A stretch of 64,000 nucleotides of DNA from Tepidiforma bonchosmolovskayae (GTDB lineage: Bacteria > Chloroflexota > Dehalococcoidia > Tepidiformales > Tepidiformaceae), in the NCBI RefSeq assembly GCF_008838325.1, contig NZ_CP042829.1, forward strand, positions 1,240,001 through 1,304,000, given 5' to 3'. Both the position numbers and the translations under genes were made by a program. This document shows positions 27,181-39,392 of the stretch, in pieces. The notes below the pieces were generated by a model that was not told the DNA's origin, did no database searches, and worked only from the letters and a program-made list of their open reading frames with translations. How positions within the stretch are numbered: position 1 is the first letter of the stretch; each line of letters opens with the position of its first letter.

Positions 27181-27978
27181 TCAGCGCCCCTTGAAGACCG
27201 GCGGCCGCTTCTCGAGGAAGGCCGCCCGCGCTTCGCGCCCGTCTTCGCTGGCGAACGCCATGCGGATGCTGGCCAGCTCCAGCCGGCACTGGGCCTCGAG
27301 GTCGATCGGCGTGGTCGCCTTCACCACCGTGCGCTTCGTCAGCCGCATGGTGATCGGCGAAACGGTCGCGCAGAGGCCCTGGCAGTACTCGGCGACGCGC
27401 GCCTCCCAGCGGTCATCGTCGACGACCTCGCCGACCAGCCCGAGGCGGAGCGCCTCTTCGGCGTCGACCGTCCTGTTCTCGAGGAGGAAGCGCATGGTCT
27501 GCTCGTAGCCGATCGCCTGGGAGAGGGTGAACGTCATGCCGCCGTCGGGCGACCCGCCGATGCGCGGGTAGCCCGCGAGGATGCGGGCGCTCCGCTTCAT
27601 CAGCCGGATGTCGGTGGCCAGCGCGAGGGAGAGCCCGGCGCCGACAGCGACGCCGCTGATGGCGCCCACGATCGGCTTTTCGCACTTCTGGCGGAGGGTG
27701 AGGAGGAACTGGGAGACCCAGCCGAGGTCGTCGAGCTGGGTGTTGAGGGGCGACTTCGGGCTGTAGTCGCCGGGGCCGCGGAGGTCGAGGCCGGAGCAGA
27801 AGGCGTCGCCCGTGCCCGTGAGGCAGATGAGCCAGACGTCGTCGACGTTCATCGCCTCTTCAATGGCGGTGACCACGCCCCAGGCGAGCTCCTGGCTGAG
27901 GGCGTTCTTCACCTCGGGGCGGTTGAGGCGGATGGTCCGGACGTGGCCGGCGTCTTCGATGGCGATGAGGTTCGACAC
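27181..27978 (-). CDS. Enoyl-CoA hydratase/isomerase family protein (first of two)
   Basis: The 265-aa crotonase-fold protein has [19 protein letters not shown], the oxyanion-hole segments [12 protein letters not shown] and [20 protein letters not shown], and the C-terminal [17 protein letters not shown] typical of hydratases. It probably hydrates 2-enoyl-CoA in fatty-acid or related acyl-CoA breakdown; related activities (isomerase, dehalogenase) cannot be excluded. The catalytic Glu positions seem partly replaced ([11 protein letters not shown] where ExxxGxxPDxG is common). The GTG at 27976-27978 has GGAGGG about 10 nt upstream, and a TATCGT box lies about 30 nt further up. Confidence 0.85.
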
Positions 27979-28036
27979 GGGGGCTGCCCTCCGGTGCAGG
28001 TGATGCCCGGACGATACACGCGTCGGTTGCAGGAAG

Positions 28037-28756
28037 CTACTCACCGGCGCGCAGGCGGGCCACTTCCTCGCGCAGGGCGCGGAGCTCGGCGAGCAGGTCG
28101 GCGAGGGTGGTCTCCTCCCGGGATTCGCGGACCAGGAAGGCGGCGACCGTGGCGGTCAGCGCCGAGAGCGCCGCGATGCCGAACAGCATGAGCGCCACGG
28201 CGACGCCGCGGCCCATCGGGGTGGTCGGGTAGACGTCGCCGTAGCCGACGGTGGTCATGGTCACCGCGGCCCACCAGATGGCATCGCCGAAGCTGGTAAT
28301 TGTCGCGCCGGGTTCGCCTCGCTCGGCGAGGTACGCGAGGGTGGCGCCGATGACGAGCGTGCCCACCACCGCGGCGACGATCACCTTCGTGCCCCGCTGC
28401 GCGAGGATGTCCCGGATCACCTGGACGTTGAACCCGAGCGCGACCGCCACGCGGGCCAGGCGGAGCGCCCGCAGCGCCCGCAGCGGCCGGAGGAACGGCA
28501 GCAGGACCATCAGCCCTTCGAGCCAGTGGCGGCGGAGGAACTCGACCCGCCGGGGCGCGACCGCCAGCTTCACCCCGAAATCGGCGGCGAAGACGGCCCA
28601 GATCGCCCAGTCGGCCACGAGGATCGCGTCATCCCACGGCGGGCGGACGGTGACGACGGCCGGCACGATGAGCAGCGGCACCAGCGCGAGCGCGAGGATG
28701 AGGAGCGGCAGGTCGGTAAACCGTTCGATGCGGCGAAGCAGTTCTTCCCGGTCCAC
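28037..28756 (-). CDS. Voltage-gated-type potassium channel
   Basis: The 239-aa protein has six TM segments. S4 is arginine-rich (LRPLRALRALRLARVAVAL), and the pore loop has the K+ selectivity filter TMTTVGYGDVYP. The C-terminus is a charged coiled coil (TTLADLLAELRALREEVARL) that may aid tetramer assembly. It would conduct K+ across the cytoplasmic membrane; whether it is gated by voltage cannot be told. The GTG at 28754-28756 is chosen over an ATG 11 codons earlier because it begins at the conserved REELLRRIERF helix; the start is not certain. Confidence 0.88.
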   Translation of the reverse strand: MDREELLRRIERFTDLPLLILALALVPLLIVPAVVTVRPPWDDAILVADWAIWAVFAADFGVKLAVAPRRVEFLRRHWLEGLMVLLPFLRPLRALRALRLARVAVALGFNVQVIRDILAQRGTKVIVAAVVGTLVIGATLAYLAERGEPGATITSFGDAIWWAAVTMTTVGYGDVYPTTPMGRGVAVALMLFGIAALSALTATVAAFLVRESREETTLADLLAELRALREEVARLRAGE

Positions 28757-28839
28757 AGGGCAGCACCCCGGCAGAGGATCGCCCCCCATTGTGGCGAAGC
28801 CGCGGGGTTCCCGGCCCGTCGCTCACCGGCGCGCAGGCG

Positions 28840-29187
28840 CTACTTCGCCGCCGATTCCCCCAGCAGCCAGCGCAGCGCCGCCTCCCGCTCACGGAAGACG
28901 GCCATCACGACTCCTTCGGCGAGGCCCGCCAGCTGAATCGCCTGCCGCGCGAGCCCGAAGGCGAGGTCGCCCGGCGCGCAGACCGCCACCCGCGCGGCCC
29001 GCGCCGCCAGCTGCTCCGCCGCGGCAGCGAGGGGGCCGGCCTCCACCTCCGCCGTCTCGAGGGCCGCGGCATCGACCAGGACGCGCGCGCCGGCGGGGAC
29101 ATCGAGCCACGCCGCCGACGCCAGCCATTCGCCGGTCAGGCCGGCCGGCACTTCGACGACCGTGTAGCAGGGGTGTTCGCCGGCCAT
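28840..29187 (-). CDS. SpoIIAA/STAS-like protein
   Basis: The 115-aa soluble protein fits the SpoIIAA-like (STAS) fold: CYTVVEVPAGLTGEWLASAA, VPAGARVLVDAAALETAEVE, RVAVCAPGDLAFGLARQAI and a final helix VFREREAALRWLLGE. Many of this group are host-response or anti-anti-sigma-like proteins without the phosphorylated Ser. No anti-sigma or sigma gene is adjacent. GGAGG lies 6-7 nt before the ATG. It is 51 bp beyond the channel gene's promoter region. Confidence 0.7.
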   Translation of the reverse strand: MAGEHPCYTVVEVPAGLTGEWLASAAWLDVPAGARVLVDAAALETAEVEAGPLAAAAEQLAARAARVAVCAPGDLAFGLARQAIQLAGLAEGVVMAVFREREAALRWLLGESAAK

Positions 29188-29394
29188 GCGCTGCCTCCGC
29201 TGCCGGTGGACGCGGCGGGGACCGAACCCGACGCCAGTGAGGATAGCTACGATCCGGGCCCCGCGCATCGATCAGCGCGGGGAAGGTCAGGGTGCCCGGG
29301 CGCCTCTCGCGGGCTTCTCGCGGCCGCCAATCGCCCATCTGCCCGGCGGCACGTAGACTCGCCCCCACCACACCGTTCCGGAGGATTCCCCACC

Positions 29395-30267
29395 ATGGGC
29401 AGGCTCGAAGGGCAGGTCGCCATCGTCACCGGCGGGGCCAGCGGCATCGGCGAACAGACGGTCCGCGCGTTCGTCGCCGAAGGCGCGCGCGTCGTCATCG
29501 CCGATGTGCAGGAGGAGCGGGGCCACCACCTCGCCGAGGCGCTCGGCACCCAGGCCAGCTTCCTCCGCACCAACGTCGCCGAGGAGGACGAGGTCGCCGC
29601 CGCCGTGGACCACGCCCTCGGCCGCTGGGGCCGGCTCGACGTGATGTTCAACAACGCCGGCTTCGGCGGCGTCTCCGGGCCGATCGACGAGCTCGACATG
29701 GCCGCCTACGACCAGACGATGGCGGTCCTCCTCCGCGGCGTGTTCCTCGGGGCGAAGCACGCCGCCCGGGCGATGAAGCCGGCCCGCCGCGGGCTCATCC
29801 TGAACACGAGCAGCGTCGCCGGGCTGCAGGCCGGCTTCGGTCCGGTGGTCTACAGCGCGGCGAAGGCGGCCGTGGCCCACCTGAGCCGCTGCCTCGCGGT
29901 CGAACTGGCCGAATTCGGCATCCGCGTCAACGCCATCTGCCCCGGCGTGACGGTCACGAACATCTTTGCGGCCGGCATGGGGCTGAGCGGCCCCGCCGCC
30001 GAGGCGCTCCTCCCGCGGATCGAAACCGCCCTCGCCGACTGGGCGCCGCTCCGCCGCGCCGGTCAGCCGGCCGATATCGCGAACGCCGCCCTCTGGCTGG
30101 CGAGCGACGAAGCGAGCTACGTCACCGGCCAGGCGATTGTCGTCGACGGCGGGCTGACGGCCGGGCGCTCGCTCGAGGAGTTCGGGCAGCGGCTGGCCTC
30201 GGCGCTGGGCCTGACCCCCGAGCAGTGGCAGGCGATGCGCGACGCCGCCCGCCGCGCCCAGGCCTAG
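29395..30267 (+). CDS. Short-chain dehydrogenase/reductase
   Basis: The 290-aa classical SDR has the cofactor motif TGGASGIGEQTVRAFVAEG, Asp after beta2 (VVIADVQEE, favouring NAD(H)), NNAGFGG, catalytic Ser in NTSSVAG and the YSAAK pair (Tyr-x-x-x-Lys). The C-terminus has the TGQAIVVDGGLTAG motif and then an extra tail of about 30 residues. Substrate is unknown; neighbouring enoyl-CoA hydratases suggest lipid or acyl-CoA metabolism. GGAGGA lies 9 nt before the ATG. Its stop overlaps that of the convergent hydratase gene by 4 bp. Confidence 0.92.
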   Translation: MGRLEGQVAIVTGGASGIGEQTVRAFVAEGARVVIADVQEERGHHLAEALGTQASFLRTNVAEEDEVAAAVDHALGRWGRLDVMFNNAGFGGVSGPIDELDMAAYDQTMAVLLRGVFLGAKHAARAMKPARRGLILNTSSVAGLQAGFGPVVYSAAKAAVAHLSRCLAVELAEFGIRVNAICPGVTVTNIFAAGMGLSGPAAEALLPRIETALADWAPLRRAGQPADIANAALWLASDEASYVTGQAIVVDGGLTAGRSLEEFGQRLASALGLTPEQWQAMRDAARRAQA

Positions 30268-31046
30268 CGGAACTTCGCCGGCCGCTTCTCCTGAAAGGCG
30301 GCCACCGCCTCGCGGTGCTCGGGGGTGCTGTAGCACTCATTGATCCGGCCGTGCTCCAGCCGCATCACCTCGTTGTAGTCCGGGTTCGCGCCGTTCTTCG
30401 TGATCAGCTCCTTGATCCAGCCCATCTGGCGGTCCGGGTTCTGCGCCAGCATGTTCGCGTACTCCATCGCCGCGTCCATGAGCTGCTCATGCGGGACCAC
30501 CTTCTGCACGAGCCCGGTGCGGAGCGCCTCTTCGGCGTCGACCAGCCGCCCGGTGAGGCACATATCGCTCGCCATGCCGAACCCGACGCGCTGGGTGAGG
30601 AAGTAGGTGCTGGCCAGCTCGGGCACGAGGCCCATCTTCACGAAGAACATCCCGAAGCGGGCCTGGTCGGAGGCGATGATGATGTCCATCGGCAGGATGG
30701 AGGTCAGCCCCACGCCGACGCAGACGCCGTTGACGGCGGCGATCATCGGCTTCGACGTGCGGACCAGCTCGACGTAGTTCGTGGTGTCGCGCTCCTCGCG
30801 GCGGGCCTGGCCCTGCGAATCGAGGCCGCGCTGGAAGGCGTCGCGCACGTCGGCCCCGGCGCAGAAGCCGCGGCCTGCGCCGGTCAGGATGATGGAGGCG
30901 ACCTCCGGGTCGGCGTTGGCGCGCCGGAAGGCGTCGTTCCGCTCCGCGGCCATCTTCCAGGTCCAGGCGTTCAGCCGCTCCGGCCGGTTCATCGTGATGA
31001 TGACGGTGTGGCCCCGCTTCTCGTAGAGGATCTGCTCGTACTCCAT
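30264..31046 (-). CDS. Enoyl-CoA hydratase/isomerase family protein (second)
   Basis: The 260-aa crotonase-fold protein has VIITMNRPERLNAWTWKM, the oxyanion-hole motifs GAGRGFCAGADVRDAF and AAVNGVCVGVGLTSILPMDI, and the C-terminal HREAVAAFQEKRPAKF. Its active-site segment FVKMGLVPELASTYFLTQRVG carries Glu at the position used by many hydratases. It shares only moderate similarity with the paralogue at 27181, so they probably act on different acyl-CoAs. A CATCAT box and GGGGAG ribosome site precede the ATG. It lies upstream of obgE's end with a 68-bp gap. Confidence 0.88.
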   Translation of the reverse strand: MEYEQILYEKRGHTVIITMNRPERLNAWTWKMAAERNDAFRRANADPEVASIILTGAGRGFCAGADVRDAFQRGLDSQGQARREERDTTNYVELVRTSKPMIAAVNGVCVGVGLTSILPMDIIIASDQARFGMFFVKMGLVPELASTYFLTQRVGFGMASDMCLTGRLVDAEEALRTGLVQKVVPHEQLMDAAMEYANMLAQNPDRQMGWIKELITKNGANPDYNEVMRLEHGRINECYSTPEHREAVAAFQEKRPAKFR

Positions 31047-31114: not shown

Positions 31115-32374
31115 TCAGCCCTCCCAGGCGATCTCCACGTCGTCGAAGACGACCACGTCGCCGGGCTTGATGCCGAGCCGCCGCAGCTCCTTGGCGATGC
31201 CCCACCGCTCGAGCCGGCGCATCACCTCGTCGAGCGCGCCCGGCATCCCGGTGTCCATCATCTTCACGAACGTGACCGCCGTGTAGCCGTCGACCACGTA
31301 CCGGCCGTCTTCGTCGATGGTCACGACGAACCGGTCGACCGGCGCGGGCCGGATGACCGGCACCTCGGCTGGCGGCTGGCTGGCGGCCCGCGCCCGCTCG
31401 GCCGCGACGAGCGCCATCAGCTCCTCCTTGAGCGGTTCGAGGCCGGTCCCGTCGTGGGCGGAGATGACCCGCACCGGTCGCCCGAGGTGCGCCGCGAGGG
31501 CCTCCGCCGAGCGCTCCGCGGCGGCGTGGTCGAGGTCGGCCTTGGTGACGGCCACCACCCGCGCGACGTGCTCGAGGCCCGGGTCGTAGGCGCGCAGCTC
31601 GCCCTCGATCAGCTCGTAGTCGGTCACGGGGTCGGGCGATTCGCAGGAGACGACATGGAGGAGGACGCGGCACCGCCGAACGTGTTTCAGGAACTCGAAG
31701 CCGAGCCCGTACCCCTCCGAGGCGCCTTCGACAAGCCCGGGCAGGTCGGCCAGCGTGAACCGCTCCCAGCCGACGTTGACGACGCCGAGCATCGGCTCGA
31801 GGGTGGTGAAGGGGTAGCTCGCGATCTTCGGCTTCGCGTTCGAAACGGCCGCCAGCAGGGTGGATTTGCCGGCGTTCGGCAGGCCGATGAGCCCGACATC
31901 GGCGAGGAGGCGGAGTTCGAGCCGGAGCCGCCGCTCTTCGCCCTCCTGCCCCTTCTGCGAGTACCCGGGCGTCTGGTTGGTGGGCGTGGCGAACCGCTTG
32001 TTCCCCCAGCCGCCGCGCCCGCCGTGGGCCACGAGCACCTCAGCGCCTACCTCGGAGAGGTCGGCGAGGAGGTCGCCCGTCTCGGCGTCGTAGACGACGG
32101 TGCCGACCGGCACCTCGAGGTAGAGGTCCTCGCCGTTGGCGCCATGCCGGAGGTTCGGGCCGCCGTTGCCGCCGGCCCCGGCCTGGAACCGCTTCCGCGA
32201 GCGGTAGAGCTCGAGCGTGTAGACGTCGTCGACGGCGCGCAGGAAGATGCGCCCGCCGCGGCCGCCGTCGCCGCCGTCGGGGCCGCCCTGCGGCACGAAC
32301 TTCTCGCGGTGGTAGCTCACGAGGCCGTGGCCGCCGTTGCCGCCTTTCACCGTGATTTCGACTGCATCGAGCAT
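31115..32374 (-). CDS. obgE: GTPase Obg/CgtA
   Basis: The 419-aa ribosome-associated GTPase has the Gly-rich Obg fold (EITVKGGNGGHGLVSYHREK, GGPDGGDGGRGGRIF), the G domain with G1 GLPNAGKSTLL, the G2/G3 region (FTTLEPMLGVVNV, LADLPGLVEGASEG) and VTKAD, and a C-terminal OCT domain (about residues 340-419, ending DDVEIAWEG). It links ribosome assembly to growth and stress. No rplU/rpmA precede it, unlike many bacteria. Its start faces a repeat-rich gap shared with the PIG-L gene. Confidence 0.96.
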   Translation of the reverse strand: MLDAVEITVKGGNGGHGLVSYHREKFVPQGGPDGGDGGRGGRIFLRAVDDVYTLELYRSRKRFQAGAGGNGGPNLRHGANGEDLYLEVPVGTVVYDAETGDLLADLSEVGAEVLVAHGGRGGWGNKRFATPTNQTPGYSQKGQEGEERRLRLELRLLADVGLIGLPNAGKSTLLAAVSNAKPKIASYPFTTLEPMLGVVNVGWERFTLADLPGLVEGASEGYGLGFEFLKHVRRCRVLLHVVSCESPDPVTDYELIEGELRAYDPGLEHVARVVAVTKADLDHAAAERSAEALAAHLGRPVRVISAHDGTGLEPLKEELMALVAAERARAASQPPAEVPVIRPAPVDRFVVTIDEDGRYVVDGYTAVTFVKMMDTGMPGALDEVMRRLERWGIAKELRRLGIKPGDVVVFDDVEIAWEG

Positions 32375-32437
32375 CCTGATCCCATGGAACCATGCCCTCT
32401 CATGGATTGGAAGATCTGATCAGAAGCAGGATCAGGC

Positions 32438-32603
32438 CGTTGGGAACGTTGGGTTCGAATCCGGCAGCCGTTGGGAAACCGTTCCGGCTGCGGACGGCGG
32501 GCGTTGGAAACCCGGTGCGGCTGGCCCCGGCTTCGGCGGCAGCGTTGGGTTCGCACGGGCCAAACCCAACGGCCGGGGCGCCAAACCCAACGGTTTCCCA
32601 ACG
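32438..32603. repeat. CGTTGGG/CCCAACG repeat array in a divergent promoter region
   Basis: Seven exact copies of CGTTGGG or its complement, plus one variant (CGTTGGA at 32502), lie in 166 bp: 32438, 32447, 32469, 32543 forward; 32565, 32586, 32597 inverted. CGTTGGGTT (32543-32551) pairs with AACCCAACG (32563-32571) as a 9-bp hairpin with an 11-nt loop. CGTTGGGAAACC (32469-32480) is the exact complement of 32592-32603. GCCAAACCCAACGG occurs twice in direct order. The array fills the 277-bp gap between obgE (minus) and the PIG-L gene (plus). It could be an operator cluster or a dispersed repeat. Confidence 0.7.
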
Positions 32604-32651
32604 CCGGGGCGTACGATGGTTGCACCATGCAACGTTCGAAGGAGGCCTCCC

Positions 32652-33395
32652 ATGACTGCAACCGAGTTCGTCCCGCCCAGCGCGATGGTCGTGGTCGCCC
32701 ACCCCGATGACGCCGAGTTCCTCTGCGGGGGGACGGTGGCGAAGTGGGCCGCCCGCGGCTGCGAGGTGACCTGCGTGGTCATCACGAAGGGCGACAAGGG
32801 GAGCGACGACCCGGAGATGACGACCGAGCGGCTGGCGGAGATCCGCGAGGCCGAGCAGCGCGCAGCCGGCGCCGTCCTCGGGGTGCGGAACTTCGAGTTC
32901 ATGGGCTACCCCGACGGCTACCTCCAGCACACGCTCGAACTTCGGCGCGACCTCGCCCGGCTCATCCGGAAGTACCGCCCGCACTCCGTCATCACCTTCG
33001 ACCCCACCAACCGCTTCCTCTCCGACACCTACATCAACCACCCGGACCACCGCGCGGCCGGCGATGCGACGCTCGACGCCGTCTTCCCGACCGCGCGCGA
33101 CCGGCTCACCTTCCCCGAGCTGCTGGTCGACGGCTACGAACCGTGGAAGGTGCGGCAGGTGTGGCTCGGCGCGGCGGCCCACCCGAACGCCTGGGTCGAT
33201 ATCTCCGGGACGCTGGAGCTGAAGAAGCAGGCGCTGCTCTGCCACCCGAGCCAGCTCTCGCCGGAGGTGGCGCTGTTCGTCGAAGGGATGGCGCGCATGG
33301 CGGGCGAGGCGAAGGGTCTGGCCGCCGCCGAGGCCTTCCGGCGGTTCATCATCGAAGCCGACCCGGTGCACGAGGCGCCGCCCCCCGGCCGCTAA
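32652..33395 (+). CDS. PIG-L/LmbE-family deacetylase
   Basis: The 247-aa protein has the zinc-site motif AHPDDAEFLCGG, then TKGDKGSDDPEMT and YPDGYLQ, and the second metal/catalytic segment YINHPDHRAAGDATLD. This matches N-acetylglucosaminyl-inositol or related de-N-acetylases (MshB, BshB, Mca). The substrate cannot be inferred; no mycothiol or bacillithiol ligase is nearby. GGAGG lies 6 nt before the ATG. It is divergent from obgE across the repeat array. Confidence 0.9.
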   Translation: MTATEFVPPSAMVVVAHPDDAEFLCGGTVAKWAARGCEVTCVVITKGDKGSDDPEMTTERLAEIREAEQRAAGAVLGVRNFEFMGYPDGYLQHTLELRRDLARLIRKYRPHSVITFDPTNRFLSDTYINHPDHRAAGDATLDAVFPTARDRLTFPELLVDGYEPWKVRQVWLGAAAHPNAWVDISGTLELKKQALLCHPSQLSPEVALFVEGMARMAGEAKGLAAAEAFRRFIIEADPVHEAPPPGR

Positions 33396-33517: not shown

Positions 33518-35251
33518 ATGAAGCCGTGGGTGGTCGGCACCCGGCCGAGCAAGCGGTACCCGCTCTGGACGCGTGCGAACGTGGGCGAGGTCTTCCCCGA
33601 CCCGGTCGCGCCGCTCTCCTTCTCGCTCCTGATGGAGAAGGACACCGAGGGCGCCTGGCGCGATGCGCTGGTGCGTATGGGTGCCTTCACCTATGACGAG
33701 TTCGACCCCGACAACATGGAGACGCTCGGGATCTTCGGCTCGTACTGCTACCTGAACGCACAGGTCACGCGTATCCTCGGGGAGCGCGCACCGGGCCTCT
33801 CGGCGCAGGCGATGGACGACCTCTTCTACGGCGCCCAGCCCGGCATCCCGCCGTACGAACCTGCCCCGGGCGACCACAACGAAGAGCGCACCGCGGCGCT
33901 TGCGAAGACGTTCGAGTGGGCGATGACGGTCCAGCACCTGGAGCGCCCCGCCCTCGACGCGAAGCGGGTCGCCGGGCTGCGGGCTGCCCGCCCCGAGCTG
34001 GAGAACCTCTCGAACGAGGCGCTCTGGGCTTACGGCAAGGGGATCGCGCTCGCCAACCACCGGCGACTCTTCTCCGAGCACATCTTCACCACCTTCATCT
34101 CGACCGTGCCCGTGGGCGCCGTGACGCAGATCTGCGCGGCGGTGGGCCGGCCCGCCGATGCCCTCCGCGTCATCCAGGGCGTGGGCGACGTGGAATCGGC
34201 CGCGCCCTCGCTCGCCATGTGGAAGCTCGGCCGGATGATCGCCGCCGACCGCGAGCTGACGGCCGCCTTCGACGCCGGCGTCGAGGGGGTGCTCGACCGG
34301 ATTCGCGGCCTGGGCGAGAACGGCCAGCGCTTCCTCGAGGCCTTCGATGCCTTCCTCTACGACTACGGCTGCCGCGGCCCGAACGAATGGGAGAGCCGCT
34401 GCCACACCTGGGAGACGAAGCCGGAGCTGGCGCTGGCCGCCATCGACCGGATGCGGTTCGCGCCCGAGAGCGCCTCGCCGGAGGCGCGCCAGAAGGAGCT
34501 CGCGGCCGAGCGCGAACGGGTGACGCAGGAGATCGCGGCGATGCTCGCCGGCGACCCGCAGAACCAGGGCCTCTTCCTCGCCGCCGCCAATGCCGCCCGC
34601 GTCTTCCAGGCCGGCCGCGAACGGACCAAGACGAACAACATCCGGATGATCCATGAGGTCCGGATGGCCCTCCATACCATCGGCCGGCGGATGGTCGCCG
34701 CCGGGCACCTCGACGACGTCGGCGACTACGCCTTCCTCCTCGCCGAGGAGTTCGACGACTGGCTGCAGAACCCGGCGAAGTACGCCTCGACCATCCGGGA
34801 GCGGAAGGCGCTCTACGAGGAGTACGCCAGCCGGCAGGAGCCGTTCGCCTTCTGGGGCGAAATTCCCGACCCGGAGACCTGGCCGAAGAAGGCCGATGTC
34901 GCCATCGAGCCGGTGAAGCCGGGCGAGGTGCTCCAGGGCTTCCAGGGCTGCGCCGGGAAGGCGACCGGGCGCGCCCGCGTCGTCCTCGACCCGCTCGACC
35001 CGCGGGGCCTCGAACCGGGCGACATCCTCGTGGCCCCGATTACCGACCCCTCGTGGACGCCGCTCTTCGTGCCGGCCGCGGCCGTGGTGGTCGATGTCGG
35101 CGCCGCCCAGAGCCACGCCATGATCGTGAGCCGCGAGCTCGGCATCCCCTGCGTGCCCTCCGTGACGAACGCCACGAAGCGGATCCCCGACGGCGCGACC
35201 ATCACCGTCGACGGCGACGCCGGGACCGTGACGGTCGTGGCGCTGCCCTGA
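33518..35251 (+). CDS. PEP-utilising-enzyme swivel (phosphohistidine) domain protein
   Basis: The 577-aa protein has a long alpha-helical region (about residues 1-470) and a C-terminal swivelling phosphohistidine domain with GDILVAPITDPSWTPLF and the phosphate-carrier His533 in GAAQSHAMIVSRELGIPCV. This layout, a large N-terminal substrate-type domain plus a C-terminal mobile domain and no ATP-grasp, resembles the alpha subunit of phenylphosphate synthase and the middle/C-terminal parts of rifampin phosphotransferase. It needs a partner to load phosphate; the PPDK-like gene 10 bp downstream has an ATP-grasp. GGAGG lies 5 nt before the ATG. Substrate is unknown. Confidence 0.8.
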   Translation: MKPWVVGTRPSKRYPLWTRANVGEVFPDPVAPLSFSLLMEKDTEGAWRDALVRMGAFTYDEFDPDNMETLGIFGSYCYLNAQVTRILGERAPGLSAQAMDDLFYGAQPGIPPYEPAPGDHNEERTAALAKTFEWAMTVQHLERPALDAKRVAGLRAARPELENLSNEALWAYGKGIALANHRRLFSEHIFTTFISTVPVGAVTQICAAVGRPADALRVIQGVGDVESAAPSLAMWKLGRMIAADRELTAAFDAGVEGVLDRIRGLGENGQRFLEAFDAFLYDYGCRGPNEWESRCHTWETKPELALAAIDRMRFAPESASPEARQKELAAERERVTQEIAAMLAGDPQNQGLFLAAANAARVFQAGRERTKTNNIRMIHEVRMALHTIGRRMVAAGHLDDVGDYAFLLAEEFDDWLQNPAKYASTIRERKALYEEYASRQEPFAFWGEIPDPETWPKKADVAIEPVKPGEVLQGFQGCAGKATGRARVVLDPLDPRGLEPGDILVAPITDPSWTPLFVPAAAVVVDVGAAQSHAMIVSRELGIPCVPSVTNATKRIPDGATITVDGDAGTVTVVALP

Positions 35252-35261
35252 GGTGCCGGCC

Positions 35262-37430
35262 ATGGATGTCGTCTGCCTCGCTGACCCGCTCCCGGCGGGC
35301 GCCGATGCGACGCGCCTGCTCGGCGGCAAGGCGGCCGGCCTCGTCACGATGACGCAGGAGCTCGGCCTGCCCGTCCCGCCGGCCTTCACCGTGACGACGG
35401 AGGTTTGCCGCCGGTTCCTCGCGGAAGGGTGGCCTGCCGGCCTCGACGACGCGGTCCGGGCCGCCCTCGGCCGGCTCGAGGCGGCCACCGGCCGCACCTT
35501 CGGCGGCGGCGAGCGCCCGCTCCTCGTCTCCGTCCGCTCCGGCGCACCGGTTTCGATGCCGGGGATGATGGACACGCTCCTCAATGTCGGGATGACCCCG
35601 ACGGTCCGCGAGGCCCTTGCCCGCGAAAGCGGCGACCCCCGCTTTGCGGCCGATACGTGGCTCCGGTTCGTGCGCGGCTACGCCGCCATCGTCCTCGGCC
35701 TGCCCGAGGACGAGGTGAACCACGCCGCCATGCACGATGACACGCCCGCGGGCCTCCTCGCCGCGGCCGGCCGCGTCTGCGCCCTCGCCGACCGGTTCGG
35801 CGGCATCCCCGCGGACCCGTTCGCGCAGGTGACCGAGGCGATCCGCGCCGTCTTCCGCTCCTGGGAGTGCGACCGCGCCCGCGTCTTCCGTGAACGGGAG
35901 GGGATCGACGGCACACTCGGCACGGCCGCCACGGTGCAGGCGATGGTCTTCGGCAACCTGGACGAGCGCTCGGGCACGGGCGTGGCCTTCACCCGCGACC
36001 CCTCGACCGGCGCCCGCGGCGCCTTCGGCGACTACCTCGCCCGGGCCCAGGGCGAAGATGTGGTGGCCGGCACCCACGCCGTCAGCGGGCTCGAAGCGCT
36101 GCGCAGCCAGCTCCCCGCGGTCTACGACGAGCTGCTCCGCCACCTGGACCGGCTCGAGCGGCACTACCGCGACATGTGCGACGTCGAGTTCACCGTCATG
36201 GGCGGCGCGCTCTACATCCTCCAGGTGCGCGTCGGGCGGCGCAGCCCGCTGGCGGCGGTGCGGATCGCGGTCGACATGGCCGAGGACCCGACGTTCCCGC
36301 TCACCCGGCGCGAAGCCGTCGAGCGCGTCGGCGCCGAGACGCTCCAGGCCCTCGCGAAGCTCGGCGGGGTCGACCCGGCGGCCGCACCCATCGGGCGGGG
36401 GCTCGCCGTCTCGCCCGGCGTGGGCGCCGGCGTGCTCTGCTGCGATGCCGGCCGGGCGGCCAGCCTCGCCGCGCAGGGCGTGAGCGTGGTCCTGGCCCGG
36501 CCCGAGACCTCCCCCGCCGACGTGCACGGCATGGTGGCCGCGGCCGGCCTCGTCACCACAACGGGCGGGGTGGTGAGTCACGCCGCGGTGGTAGCCCGTG
36601 GCTGGGCCATTCCCGCCGTCTGCAGCCTGCAGGACGCCGTCGTGGAGGAGGACGCCCTCGTGGTCGGCGGGCGCCGCATCGCGGAAGGGGAGTGGGTCAC
36701 GGTCGACGGGACGCGCGGGCTGCTGTTCGCCGGCGACTGCCGGGCCGATGGGGCCGCCGACATCCCCGAAGTGCGGCTGCTGCGCCAGTGGGCCGCCGAG
36801 CTGGCCGAGGCCGGCCCCGGCGACGGCGCCGCGGCTGCCCCTGCCGGGGCCCGGCCCGTGAGCCGGTTCGACGTCCTGCGGGCGCTCGGGCTGAAGGGGC
36901 TGGCCGCCGCCGAGCGGGTCGCCGCCGTGCTCGACGCGGACGCCGGGGCCGTCGAGGCGGAGCTCCGGGCCGCCGCCGAGGCCGGGCTGGTGCGGGAGAC
37001 GCCGCGCGGCTTCGCCATGCTGCCGGCCGGGCGGGATGCCGTCCTTGAGGCGCTAGCCGCCGAGCGGGCCGCCATCGACCCGGCCGCGATTGATGCGGCC
37101 TTCGCGGCCTTCGATGCGCTCGACCGGGAGTTCAAGGCGCTGGTCAGCGGCTGGCAGCAGGCCGCGCCGGCCGAAGCTGACGCCGCCTGGGCTGCGGCAC
37201 TCTCCGGGCTCGAGCAGCTGCACGCCCGGCTGGGGCCGGTGGTGGCGCAGGCTGCCGGGCTCGTGCCGCGGCTGGCGCCCTTCGCGGGGCGGTTCGAGCA
37301 GGCGCTGGCGGCCGTCCGGGCCGGCGACCGGTCGATGCTCGCCTCGCCGCTCAAGGAGAGCTACCACACCGTCTGGTTCGAGCTGCACGAGGAGCTGATC
37401 GCCCTGAGCGGGCGCCGCCGGGAGGAGTAG
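35262..37430 (+). CDS. PPDK-like protein: ATP-grasp and swivel domain, no PEP/pyruvate domain
   Basis: The 722-aa protein starts like pyruvate phosphate dikinase (LLGGKAAGLVTMTQELGLPV, then SVRSGAPVSMPGMMDTLLNVG and GNLDERSGTGVAFTRDPSTG), with an ATP-grasp to about residue 330. A swivel domain has His440 in TTTGGVVSHAAVVARGWAIP. The C-terminal PEP/pyruvate TIM barrel of true PPDK is absent. Instead there is a winged-helix-like segment (FDVLRALGLKGLAAAERVAA, VEAELRAAAEAGLVRETPRG) and a helical tail. It could phosphorylate its own His from ATP and pass phosphate to an unknown acceptor, perhaps with the upstream swivel protein. Start choice: ATG at 35262 with TGAGGT 8 nt upstream; a GTG three codons earlier is possible. 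Confidence 0.82.
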   Translation: MDVVCLADPLPAGADATRLLGGKAAGLVTMTQELGLPVPPAFTVTTEVCRRFLAEGWPAGLDDAVRAALGRLEAATGRTFGGGERPLLVSVRSGAPVSMPGMMDTLLNVGMTPTVREALARESGDPRFAADTWLRFVRGYAAIVLGLPEDEVNHAAMHDDTPAGLLAAAGRVCALADRFGGIPADPFAQVTEAIRAVFRSWECDRARVFREREGIDGTLGTAATVQAMVFGNLDERSGTGVAFTRDPSTGARGAFGDYLARAQGEDVVAGTHAVSGLEALRSQLPAVYDELLRHLDRLERHYRDMCDVEFTVMGGALYILQVRVGRRSPLAAVRIAVDMAEDPTFPLTRREAVERVGAETLQALAKLGGVDPAAAPIGRGLAVSPGVGAGVLCCDAGRAASLAAQGVSVVLARPETSPADVHGMVAAAGLVTTTGGVVSHAAVVARGWAIPAVCSLQDAVVEEDALVVGGRRIAEGEWVTVDGTRGLLFAGDCRADGAADIPEVRLLRQWAAELAEAGPGDGAAAAPAGARPVSRFDVLRALGLKGLAAAERVAAVLDADAGAVEAELRAAAEAGLVRETPRGFAMLPAGRDAVLEALAAERAAIDPAAIDAAFAAFDALDREFKALVSGWQQAAPAEADAAWAAALSGLEQLHARLGPVVAQAAGLVPRLAPFAGRFEQALAAVRAGDRSMLASPLKESYHTVWFELHEELIALSGRRREE

Positions 37431-37449: not shown

Positions 37450-38982
37450 CTAGCGGGCCTGGCCGGCTTCGCGGAGCAGGCGGAGGAACTCGGGGTCGCC
37501 CTGGAGGATCGCGAGGCGCGGGTCGGCGGCAGCCTCGCGGGCGTAGCCGCGGTCGAGGGCGAGCGCCCGCTGCACGTGGCGGAGCGCCTCCTCGCGGTTG
37601 CCCATGGAGGCTGCGGCCTGGGCTGCCCCGTAGTGGGCGGCGGGGTCGTCGGGGTCGAGCCCGGCGGCGGCGAGGAAGTCGAGCAGCGCCGCCGCGGCGT
37701 CGCCGCTGTGGAGGTGGGCGAGCCCGCGGTTCACCATGACCGTCGTGTCGCCGGGGTCGACCGCCAGCGCGGCGTCGAAGTCGGCCAGGGCAGCGGCGTA
37801 GTTGCCGCGGTAGAGGTGGAGCATACCGCGGTTGTTCAGGGCGTCCGGGTCGTTCGGCTGGAGCTCGAGCGCGCGGTTGTAATCGGCCAGCGCCTTCTCG
37901 AACTCGCCCGAGCGGGTGTAGGCGTTGGCGCGGTTGTAGTAGGCCGCCGTGAGGTCGGGGTCGAGCTCGATGGCGGCGGTGTACCGGTCGATGGCAAGCG
38001 CGAACTGCCCGACGTTGAAGTAGACGTTCCCTTCGTCGACGTAGGACTCGGCAGAGCGCCGCGGGGGCCGCTGGATGGGGGCAGGCTGGAGCTCGCCCAG
38101 GGCCGCTTCGAGGCTGGCGGGGAGCGGCTCCTCAGCTTCGGCCGGCGGGGGCCCCGGCGCGGCCGCCGGCCGGCCGGTCACCTCCGCGCCGGAGGCATCG
38201 AGCGCCTCGTCGACGGGCGGCGCGCCGGGCGGCGGAGCCATGCCTTCGTTGGCGGCGTCGGCGGCCTGGCGCTCCAGCTCTCCTGCGGCCGCGGGCGGCG
38301 CCTCCGGCTCGGGCATGGCGGCCAGCTCTTCGAAGCGGGAGAGGATGACATCGGGCTCCGCCGGGGCGGGCGCCTCCTCCGCGGGGAGCGGCTCGGCGGC
38401 CGGTTCGGCCTCGTCTTCGATCGGCAGGATGAGCGGCTCTGCGCCGGGTTCGGCCCCGGCCAGCATGGCGGCGAAGTCGGGGTCCTCGCGCGCCTCCGCC
38501 GCTTCGGGGGGTGCGATGCCGCCGAAGGTGCCCGTGAACGCCTGCTCGAGCTGTTCGAACTCGGCGACGGCGCGCTCCAGCTCGGCGGCCTCGGCGAAGA
38601 GCTGCCGCACGGCTTCATCGCTGAGCTCCTCCGGCGCTCCGGCGGCCGGCGCTGCGGCGGGGCCTGAGCCTGCGTCCGGCTCCTCGACGATTGCCGGTTC
38701 GGCGGGCGGCTCGGGCTCCACGACGTGCCCCGTCTCGTCGATGGCGACATCCACCGCGGGCTCCCAGTCGGGGGCGCGCATCCCTTCGGCCTCGGCGTCG
38801 GCGATCTCCTGTTCGAGCGCCTCGTCCTCGTCGATGGTGAGGACCGGTTCGACGGCGGGCGGCGTCCAGCCGGGCTCGGGGGCCGGCCAGCTCCGCCCCC
38901 GCCGCCGCACGGCCAGCACGGCGACAGCGGCCGCCCCGGCGAGGATGGCGACGACGATGAGCAGGCGGAGCAGGCGGCGCAT
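37450..38982 (-). CDS. Membrane-anchored TPR protein
   Basis: The 510-aa protein has one N-terminal TM helix (LLRLLIVVAILAGAAAVAVL), then about 300 residues rich in Pro, Ala and Glu that are probably disordered. A C-terminal TPR domain (about residues 325-490) has four or more 34-residue repeats such as VYFNVGQFALAIDRYTAAIE, AYTRSGEFEKALADYNRALE and LHLYRGNYAAALADFDAALA. It likely scaffolds protein complexes; partner unknown. The ATG shares one base with the stop of the upstream 136-aa gene (TGATG), so they are coupled. The linker composition is acidic, unlike its neighbours. Confidence 0.85.
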   Translation of the reverse strand: MRRLLRLLIVVAILAGAAAVAVLAVRRRGRSWPAPEPGWTPPAVEPVLTIDEDEALEQEIADAEAEGMRAPDWEPAVDVAIDETGHVVEPEPPAEPAIVEEPDAGSGPAAAPAAGAPEELSDEAVRQLFAEAAELERAVAEFEQLEQAFTGTFGGIAPPEAAEAREDPDFAAMLAGAEPGAEPLILPIEDEAEPAAEPLPAEEAPAPAEPDVILSRFEELAAMPEPEAPPAAAGELERQAADAANEGMAPPPGAPPVDEALDASGAEVTGRPAAAPGPPPAEAEEPLPASLEAALGELQPAPIQRPPRRSAESYVDEGNVYFNVGQFALAIDRYTAAIELDPDLTAAYYNRANAYTRSGEFEKALADYNRALELQPNDPDALNNRGMLHLYRGNYAAALADFDAALAVDPGDTTVMVNRGLAHLHSGDAAAALLDFLAAAGLDPDDPAAHYGAAQAAASMGNREEALRHVQRALALDRGYAREAAADPRLAILQGDPEFLRLLREAGQAR

Positions 38983-39392
38983 CAGGCGCCTCCGCGGGCG
39001 GCTTCGCGTTCGAGCAGCTCCTCGGTCACCAGCCGCAGCGCCTCGTAGAGGTAGAGCACCTGGTCGCGCGGGTGGAGCTCCACCTTTTTGAGGGTCTCCT
39101 TGCGGGCCGTGACCGGGTCCCACGAGCCGGTCAGCTCGATGCTCTCGTGGTCGATGCCCATCTGGAGTTCGTACAGCTCGCCGTCTTCGGCGACGACAAT
39201 GCAGCCGACATCGGGGTTGTTGGCGAGGGGGCCGATATCGACCTCGATCGCGTTCGTGAAGAGGGCGTTCGGGAAGGGAGGGAAGGGGCGGAGCTCGGCC
39301 GCCGCCTCGCGGAGGAGGTCGGCGAGCTGGAACGCGGCCCGCTCCAGGATGGCATCGGCCTGCGCTTTGCGGCGGAGTGCTTCACTGGCCAT
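38982..39392 (-). CDS. Hypothetical protein, 136 aa, coupled to the TPR gene
   Basis: A soluble protein with helical ends and a beta core: ILERAAFQLADLLREAAAEL, PDVGCIVVAEDGELYELQMG, and DQVLYLYEALRLVTEELLER. I do not recognise it. TATACT ends 8 nt before the ATG with no ribosome site, so the transcript is probably leaderless. The stop overlaps the TPR gene start by 1 bp. It is divergent from dnaE with 127 bp between. Confidence 0.7.
   Translation of the reverse strand: MASEALRRKAQADAILERAAFQLADLLREAAAELRPFPPFPNALFTNAIEVDIGPLANNPDVGCIVVAEDGELYELQMGIDHESIELTGSWDPVTARKETLKKVELHPRDQVLYLYEALRLVTEELLEREAARGGA

Follow-up and report, generated by a model that had tools for sequence, protein, structure and literature searches.

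Two adjacent plus-strand genes of Tepidiforma bonchosmolovskayae (Chloroflexota, class Dehalococcoidia), here called A and B, each encode a swivel domain with a predicted phosphohistidine. They lie in a 64,000-nucleotide stretch (the window; positions 1240001-1304000 of one 2.75 Mb contig), whose coordinates are used throughout (Table 1). An earlier note on this DNA had proposed that both open reading frames (ORFs) carry a swivel histidine, that only the second has an ATP-grasp domain, and that the phosphoenolpyruvate (PEP)/pyruvate barrel is present in neither, and all three points were borne out. The swivel domains of the two ORFs (33518-35251 and 35253-37430) score 78.2 and 70.4 bits against a curated Pfam cutoff of 23.1. 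The ATP-grasp family PPDK_N is found in B (141 bits versus a cutoff of 27) and not in A, and the barrel family PF02896 matches the whole 2.75 Mb genome at one site only, inside a 780-amino-acid (aa) PEP synthase. The closest named relatives are T. flava and Tepidiforma sp. KatS3mg064, which have an 81% match to the C-terminal domain of B.

B is 722 aa long from the ATG at 35262, and the ORF is 725 aa long from the GTG at 35253. The swivel residue of A is His533, as claimed, and His440 of B is correctly numbered if the ATG is the start; counted from the GTG, it is His443. Residues K26, R95, E312, Q324, and R326 of B are given in the 725-aa numbering. The Shine-Dalgarno-like sequence ahead of the ATG overlaps the stop codon of A, and the two genes look translationally coupled. 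A itself is preceded by a good Shine-Dalgarno sequence, GGAGG. A promoter and terminator scan returned no promoter-like sites and two terminator-like sites on the minus strand, versus 1.3 in shuffles.

Table 1. Features of the A-B locus, in window coordinates
Feature	Position	Strand	Basis or detail
Gene A: RPH-type substrate domain and swivel phosphohistidine domain, no ATP-grasp; 577 aa	33518..35251	+	
A substrate-binding (R) domain, residues 1-470, superposing with the rifampin-binding domain of RPH-Lm	33518..34927	+	VIA-align
Motif R367-E368-x-x-K371 of A, matching Arg666, Glu667, Lys670 of RPH-Lm	34616..34630	+	alignment
A swivel domain (PF00391)	34925..35248	+	Pfam
A His533 codon, predicted phosphohistidine	35114..35116	+	invariant in 43/43 homologues
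Shine-Dalgarno-like GAGGTG before the ATG of B	35250..35255	+	read by eye
Gene B: ATP-grasp of the PPDK type, a swivel of its own, and a winged-helix/helical domain (W)	35262..37430	+	
B ATP-grasp domain	35262..36362	+	PPDK-equivalent K26, R95, E312, Q324, R326 conserved
B swivel, the PPDK phosphoryl-carrier domain	36369..36746	+	2fm4 Z 18.1, 125 residues
B His440 codon, predicted phosphohistidine	36579..36581	+	invariant in 72/72 homologues
B C-terminal domain W, with a winged helix at 537-608 and a helical bundle at 609-722 (591-719 in the AlphaFold2 model)	36858..37427	+	
PIG-L/LmbE deacetylase, upstream neighbour of A (context only)	32337..33395	+	Pfam
Crotonase-type gene	27181-28044		judged by eye
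SDR gene	29287-30264		
Crotonase-type gene	30264-31046		Pfam

Domain architecture of A and B

The AlphaFold2 model of A was confident (pLDDT 92.2, pTM 0.90; alignment of 35 sequences). Along almost the full length of the protein, its top structural match was the rifampin phosphotransferase RPH-Lm (5fbt; Foldseek E 1.2e-22, TMq 0.70), and VIA-align superposed 500 residues over 8-575 on 5fbt with a Z score of 30.4 and a root mean square deviation (rmsd) of 3.6. PPDK, PEP synthase, and enzyme I matched A essentially over the swivel domain alone with both programs. The model suggests that A is the RPH fold minus its ATP-grasp. Further inspection of A revealed the R-E-x-x-K motif of RPH-Lm, in which Arg666, Glu667, and Lys670 handle phosphate in the second half-reaction; changing Arg666 or Glu667 of RPH abolishes rifampin inactivation (PMC4844700). 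In an alignment of 43 A homologues from 42 loci, His533 is invariant; at the position of R367, 37 homologues have R and 6 have Q, and at that of K371, 26 have K and 17 have R. The Q rows are marine Acidimicrobiales, in which the aligner was off by one and the position was read by eye. A is thereby predicted to retain what a small-molecule phosphotransferase needs for its second half-reaction and to lack what it needs for the first. RPH shares the substrate domain, the swivel, and the motif with A; unlike A, it is a single chain with its own ATP-grasp, and rifampin is not implied as a substrate of A.

Analysis with NCBIfam placed A among the substrate-plus-swivel parts of RPH, RedH, and PigC, all far under their cutoffs: 133.9 bits against 999 for the rifampin phosphotransferase model NF041857, 151.2 against 1350 for RedH, and 125.9 against 1300 for PigC. 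The best of these alignments is that with RedH (A 14-574 versus 318-878 of 880; E 3e-44). NF004520 (854 aa) aligns to A over 337-576.

The model of B (pLDDT 93.0) had a pTM of only 0.72, as expected because its domains are loosely tethered. B superposes on the first two domains of PPDK (Z 43.3, 511 residues, 40% identity) and much more weakly on HpeI (Z 16.9, 239 residues, 26% identity). E312, Q324, R326, and the swivel histidine are identical in all 72 B homologues, and K26 and R95 are invariant in all 69 of the 72 that span them; these five ATP-grasp positions correspond to catalytic residues of PPDK. PPDK shares the ATP-grasp and phosphoryl-carrier domains with B, which lacks the PEP/pyruvate barrel. 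Among the PPDK models of NCBIfam, B exceeds the cutoff of NF004531 (truncated PPDK) alone, by a small margin (465.8 versus 456 bits). VadK of Mycobacterium tuberculosis (Rv1127c; NF004531/PRK05878) likewise is a truncated PPDK comprising ATP-grasp and swivel, with an Rv1126c-like partner. Judged from sequence and model, B is a VadK-type protein: the front half of PPDK without the PEP barrel, fused to a C-terminal domain that we designate W. Unlike VadK, it has its partner fused and an RPH-type acceptor gene coupled directly upstream. VadK autophosphorylates its swivel histidine, His422, with ATP and Mg, and its Arg106 is described as ATP binding; strains in which either residue was changed did not grow on propionate (PMC13400623).

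The winged-helix-like C terminus that the earlier note had described in B is real. Helices and a wing lie at 538-589 of the AlphaFold2 model, and 71 residues within 537-608 superpose on the MarR protein Rv2887 (Z 13.1, rmsd 1.1); to this we add the helical bundle beyond it. The tail is not a peculiarity of B, however: VadK-type proteins have W as a conserved partner subunit, fused in Tepidiforma and encoded by a separate gene of ~200 aa in mycobacteria and Rhodococcus. W ends in the invariant SxHxxWFExH. In a 10-sequence alignment, all 15 invariant residues were in the helical part, 9 of them within the last 27 residues around this motif. No Pfam family matched W above cutoff, the Mycobacterium triplex copy had no NCBIfam match, a sequence comparison with the PDB gave weak winged-helix matches only (best E 0.015), and a phage homologue was looked for and not found. 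On plasmids of Diaphorobacter, M. avium, and M. branderi, a separate W gene ("hypothetical" or "MarR") adjoins the truncated PPDK, and "PEP-utilizing enzyme" genes are found nearby. In M. triplex, an NF004531 protein (883.5 bits) is followed directly by W. Rv1126c is apparently a W-type protein, judging from its gene order beside Rv1127c rather than from an alignment. Coexpression with this operon neighbour made VadK more soluble, and washing with 2 M NaCl served to separate them (PMC13400623). The fusion in B and this effect on solubility agree that the truncated PPDK and W form a unit.

Distribution of putative donors and acceptors

A scan of genome contigs for W gave at least 593 pattern matches and at least 560 relatives, the best 80 of which were taken as loci; some gene calls in this analysis come from a crude method based on codon-position GC. 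A truncated PPDK was present in 72 of the 80 (fused to W in 49, a separate gene in 23), with none in view in the remaining 8. An A-like gene was found in the fetched stretch at 42 of the 80 loci, whereas ~0.8 would be expected from the density of orphan swivel proteins (swivel without ATP-grasp), counted by hand in 12 of these genomes. One locus (L052) has two A-like genes in tandem. At six of the eight loci with no truncated PPDK in view, the A-like gene is right beside W on the opposite strand. These six (L047, L049, L050, L053, L060, and L070) are from marine Acidimicrobiales, with W and the A-like gene back to back, and their A-like proteins have Q at the equivalent of RPH Arg666.

The A-B pair is conserved across Chloroflexota, and its modules are conserved across Actinomycetota. 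Strong W matches were found in 5 of 119 genomes of the class, 3 further matches being weak winged-helix matches. Among the matches listed, A orthologues above 650 bits (the full-length A subfamily) occur in the same 5 genomes and in no others. In each of the five, A immediately precedes B, one locus being cut by a contig end; the five span only two families and so are not five independent events. Two further class genomes of the family, G033 and G077, carry both orphans and a stand-alone ATP-grasp; G060 and G107 carry neither.

The T. bonchosmolovskayae genome has six sites of the swivel family, and PPDK_N (PF01326) is confined to the PEP synthase, a fused RPH-like protein of 845 aa, and B. 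Three of its swivel proteins are orphans: A and two others, of which one (L017) is 47% and the other (L016) 29% identical to A; the two lie at the 1537676 and 2706043 loci of the genome. Since B is the sole separable ATP-grasp donor in a genome that has two A-like orphans besides A, it probably serves several acceptors. We also tallied by hand 17 genomes with B (the 5 of the class and 12 others), accepting that a few of the orphans may be proteins of the phosphotransferase system (PTS) or contig fragments. Each of the 17 has at least one swivel protein without an ATP-grasp, M. triplex (~10) and Nocardia alni (8) having the most. Thirteen have no separable ATP-grasp donor besides B; of the other four, G025, G056, and G126 also have a stand-alone ATP-grasp, and G124 has a second truncated PPDK.

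Proposed phosphoryl transfer between B and A

In HpeHI, CreHI, and PpsAB, a subunit with a substrate domain and a swivel (RPH-like fold, catalytic histidine) is served by a separate ATP-grasp subunit. A resembles these acceptor subunits in having an RPH-like substrate domain and a swivel histidine without an ATP-grasp. Unlike their partners, which consist of an HpeI/PEP-synthase-like ATP-grasp only, B is of the PPDK type, has its own invariant swivel histidine, and carries W; moreover, acceptors outnumber the donor in Tepidiforma. The likeness to phenylphosphate synthase drawn in the earlier note therefore holds in part. A split phosphotransferase with A of the RPH/HpeH type stands, but B is not of the PpsB/HpeI type. 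As that note had remarked, no ubiD-like carboxylase is near; indeed, PF01977 has no match in the whole genome, unlike in the phenylphosphate synthase pathway.

We lean towards the reading that A and B are a split small-molecule dikinase working by a trans phosphohistidine relay, from ATP through the histidines of B and A to a substrate hydroxyl. The PPDK-type ATP-grasp of B would charge its own swivel histidine from ATP, as its relative VadK suggests, presumably releasing AMP. With the help of W, the phosphohistidine of B would then dock on the swivel of A and hand the phosphoryl group to His533. The precedent is the PTS, in which enzyme I passes a swivel-type phosphohistidine's phosphoryl group to a second histidine protein, HPr, and one donor serves many acceptors. 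Unlike the PTS, the A-B pair would be driven by ATP rather than PEP, and its acceptor is itself a swivel-domain enzyme. Finally, by analogy with RPH and HpeH, the swivel of A would turn to the RPH-type domain, where R367, E368, and K371 may help to phosphorylate the hydroxyl of a bound small molecule. Conserved neighbours across the A-B loci are few and mixed, and no substrate is assignable from the gene neighbourhood. An alcohol of lipid, terpenoid, or aromatic metabolism is weakly suggested, because the neighbours of a paralogue and of relatives are short-chain dehydrogenase/reductase (SDR), crotonase, 3-hydroxyacyl-coenzyme A (CoA) dehydrogenase, CoA-transferase, and acyl-CoA dehydrogenase genes. 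We rejected 25-hydroxysteroid kinase as an analogue; it is a 40-kDa monomeric phosphotransferase that makes ADP without a phosphoenzyme (PMC8449060).

Several observations weigh against the relay. Thirty-eight of the 80 W loci show no A-like gene in view, although some contigs are short. Among the matches listed, 23 class genomes have A-like proteins and no B; at a threshold of E 1e-15, a stand-alone ATP-grasp was detected in 12 of these and in none of the other 11, so an orphan alone does not prove a trans donor. In HpeHI, the acceptor histidine is charged straight from the ATP-grasp subunit, with no second swivel involved (PMC12167813). VadK reportedly binds and regulates enzymes of the methylcitrate cycle; methylcitrate enzymes appear in its coimmunoprecipitation list, and Rv2047c, the acceptor proposed below, is not among the five tabulated partners, which also counts against that proposal (PMC13400623).

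The strongest alternative is direct transfer as in HpeHI or phenylphosphate synthase, with the ATP-grasp of B charging His533 of A and the swivel of B serving its own acceptor or gating. HpeH and HpeI jointly phosphorylate phenols, with His581 of HpeH essential, and both HpeI/HpeH and PpsB/PpsA function without a second swivel (PMC12167813). The ATP-grasp of B also resembles those of RPH (Z 20-25) and HpeI (Z 16.9). However, the swivel histidine of B is invariant in its 72 homologues, VadK His422 is needed in vivo (PMC13400623), and the ATP-grasp of B is closest to that of PPDK, whose partner swivel is in cis. We consider direct transfer possible but doubtful, and we prefer the relay mainly because B keeps an invariant swivel histidine and PPDK-type geometry, neither of which is found in the HpeI type; the stand-alone swivel genes of two Rhodococcus plasmids, described below, also resemble HPr-style carriers.

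It is unlikely that B is instead a VadK-like regulatory histidine kinase whose targets are metabolic enzymes, W being a sensor or DNA-binding module and A a mere neighbour. The description of VadK as a methylcitrate cycle regulator (PMC13400623) and the MarR-like winged helix of W are consistent with this. On the other hand, A adjoins B in all five class genomes with B, an A-like gene accompanies W at 42 of the 80 loci, and none of the 15 invariant residues of W is in the winged helix, so W is not like a conserved operator reader. RedH and PigC phosphorylate one partner and then condense it with another, and the RedH alignment noted above would fit a phosphorylation-driven ligase rather than a simple kinase; with a RedH score so far under the cutoff, this is improbable for A. 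A split or decaying PPDK or PEP synthase can be dismissed as highly improbable: B is 40% identical to PPDK across its first two domains, but the substrate domain of A is RPH-type, the pair is kept across Chloroflexota and its modules across Actinomycetota, and a fragmented PPDK with its missing C-terminal gene nearby, which the earlier note had named as the finding that would overturn its proposal, is ruled out by the confinement of PF02896 to the PEP synthase.

Two broader ideas were abandoned. A universal rule that every orphan acceptor has a trans donor was not upheld, given the 11 genomes with A-like proteins and no stand-alone or B-type ATP-grasp at E 1e-15 (G100, G089, G078, G117, G103, G093, G020, G055, G036, G022, and G081). 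The residue eight before the histidine was dropped as a marker separating relay from direct acceptors, since the fused RPH-like protein shares it.

VadK, possible mycobacterial acceptors, and neighbouring genes

In the full text of open-licence literature, where searches brought up HpeHI, RPH, VadK, and a transposon sequencing study, we found no prior description in which a truncated PPDK, W, and RPH-type acceptors are joined. Split dikinases (HpeHI and PpsAB) and VadK were already known; their combination, W, and the donor-to-acceptor ratio appear to be new. The relay would link these two separate bodies of work, and it would offer a concrete acceptor class for VadK-type proteins, B being a relative of a tuberculosis virulence protein. 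VadK was described in 2026 as being without any gene able to restore the missing PEP domain; its proposed role is methylcitrate-cycle regulation, and the portions of that paper available to us propose no acceptor kinase (PMC13400623). To these the present analysis adds a conserved subunit without a family name and a proposed one-donor, many-acceptors phosphorelay run on ATP. If true, the relay would also open a route to identifying what many "PEP-utilizing enzyme" genes of catabolic plasmids act on, and it would supply a candidate for the mycoketide kinase.

More tentatively, B-type proteins may be ATP-driven counterparts of enzyme I for sets of RPH-type kinases, with VadK/Rv1126c charging Rv2047c as the mycoketide kinase. 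VadK would then be more than a regulator and Rv2047c an SDR joined to an RPH-type acceptor in the pks12 operon, a proposal we regard as speculative; perhaps Rv2047c is also the mycoketide reductase in mannosyl-phosphomycoketide synthesis. Rv2047c has an N-terminal epimerase and a C-terminal PEP-utilizing domain and is in an operon with pks12 (PMC7058343). In Table 1 of the same transposon sequencing study, the calls were NE ES GD NE NE ES for rv1127c, NE ES ES NE NE GD for rv2047c, and NE GD GD NE NE GD for pks12, with the columns (cMBT, high MBT, low MBT, hemin, haemoglobin, and hemin + MBT) ordered as in a figure legend (PMC7058343). The nearly identical mycobactin-dependent essentiality profiles of rv1127c and rv2047c are suggestive only, because mmpL5, mmpS5, and irtB share the pattern. 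According to a 2012 review, no enzyme had been identified for the hydrolysis, reduction, phosphorylation, or mannosylation of mycoketide, and mannosyl-phosphomycoketide was not detected in M. smegmatis (PMC3318773), a species described as lacking VadK (PMC13400623). Against this extension, the phenotype of the vadK mutant is on propionate, and Rv2047c, mycoketide, and pks12 are not mentioned in the VadK paper (PMC13400623).

M. triplex (G126) encodes an NF004520 protein (L111:7353-9974; an 874-aa frame, 1566 bits versus a cutoff of 1509) beside a modular polyketide synthase. The M. triplex protein has an NAD-epimerase domain, an R-like domain, and a swivel with an SH motif, without an ATP-grasp. 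NF004520 is probably the Rv2047c family, judging from its length and from the agreement of this domain layout with that published for Rv2047c (PMC7058343). In its own genome, the M. triplex protein is a candidate to accept phosphate from the VadK-type donor. Several orphan swivel proteins of M. triplex are spread across ~220 kb (C1:4.83-5.05 Mb), together with the truncated PPDK. In L114, the part of this region that was covered, they have sulfotransferase- and luciferase-type genes as neighbours.

Stand-alone swivel genes encoding 122 and 138 aa, each with the SH motif, are present on two Rhodococcus plasmids (L013:9354-9719 and L014:7635-8048). They adjoin W and a truncated PPDK in an HPr-like arrangement, and a fully split relay with an HPr-like carrier is possible there. 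Their neighbours of 383 and 478 aa match no Pfam family and were not recognisable as R domains (hhalign probability <1%). The last 320 residues of an 835-aa truncated PPDK protein (L014:10246-12750) match no Pfam family and show no PEP barrel at E 1e-4.

The PIG-L/LmbE gene upstream of A lies 122 bases 5' of it on the same strand and is shared with L031 and L033, the loci of the closest relatives; it is the sole neighbour common to these two loci and the window, and L036 has a doubtful 31% match. Farther upstream, the two crotonase-type genes and the SDR gene within 27181-31046 give acyl-CoA-type surroundings. Downstream, a minus-strand gene convergent with B (37450-39123) encodes a tetratricopeptide repeat protein with a long acidic N-terminal part rich in Glu, Ala, and Pro.

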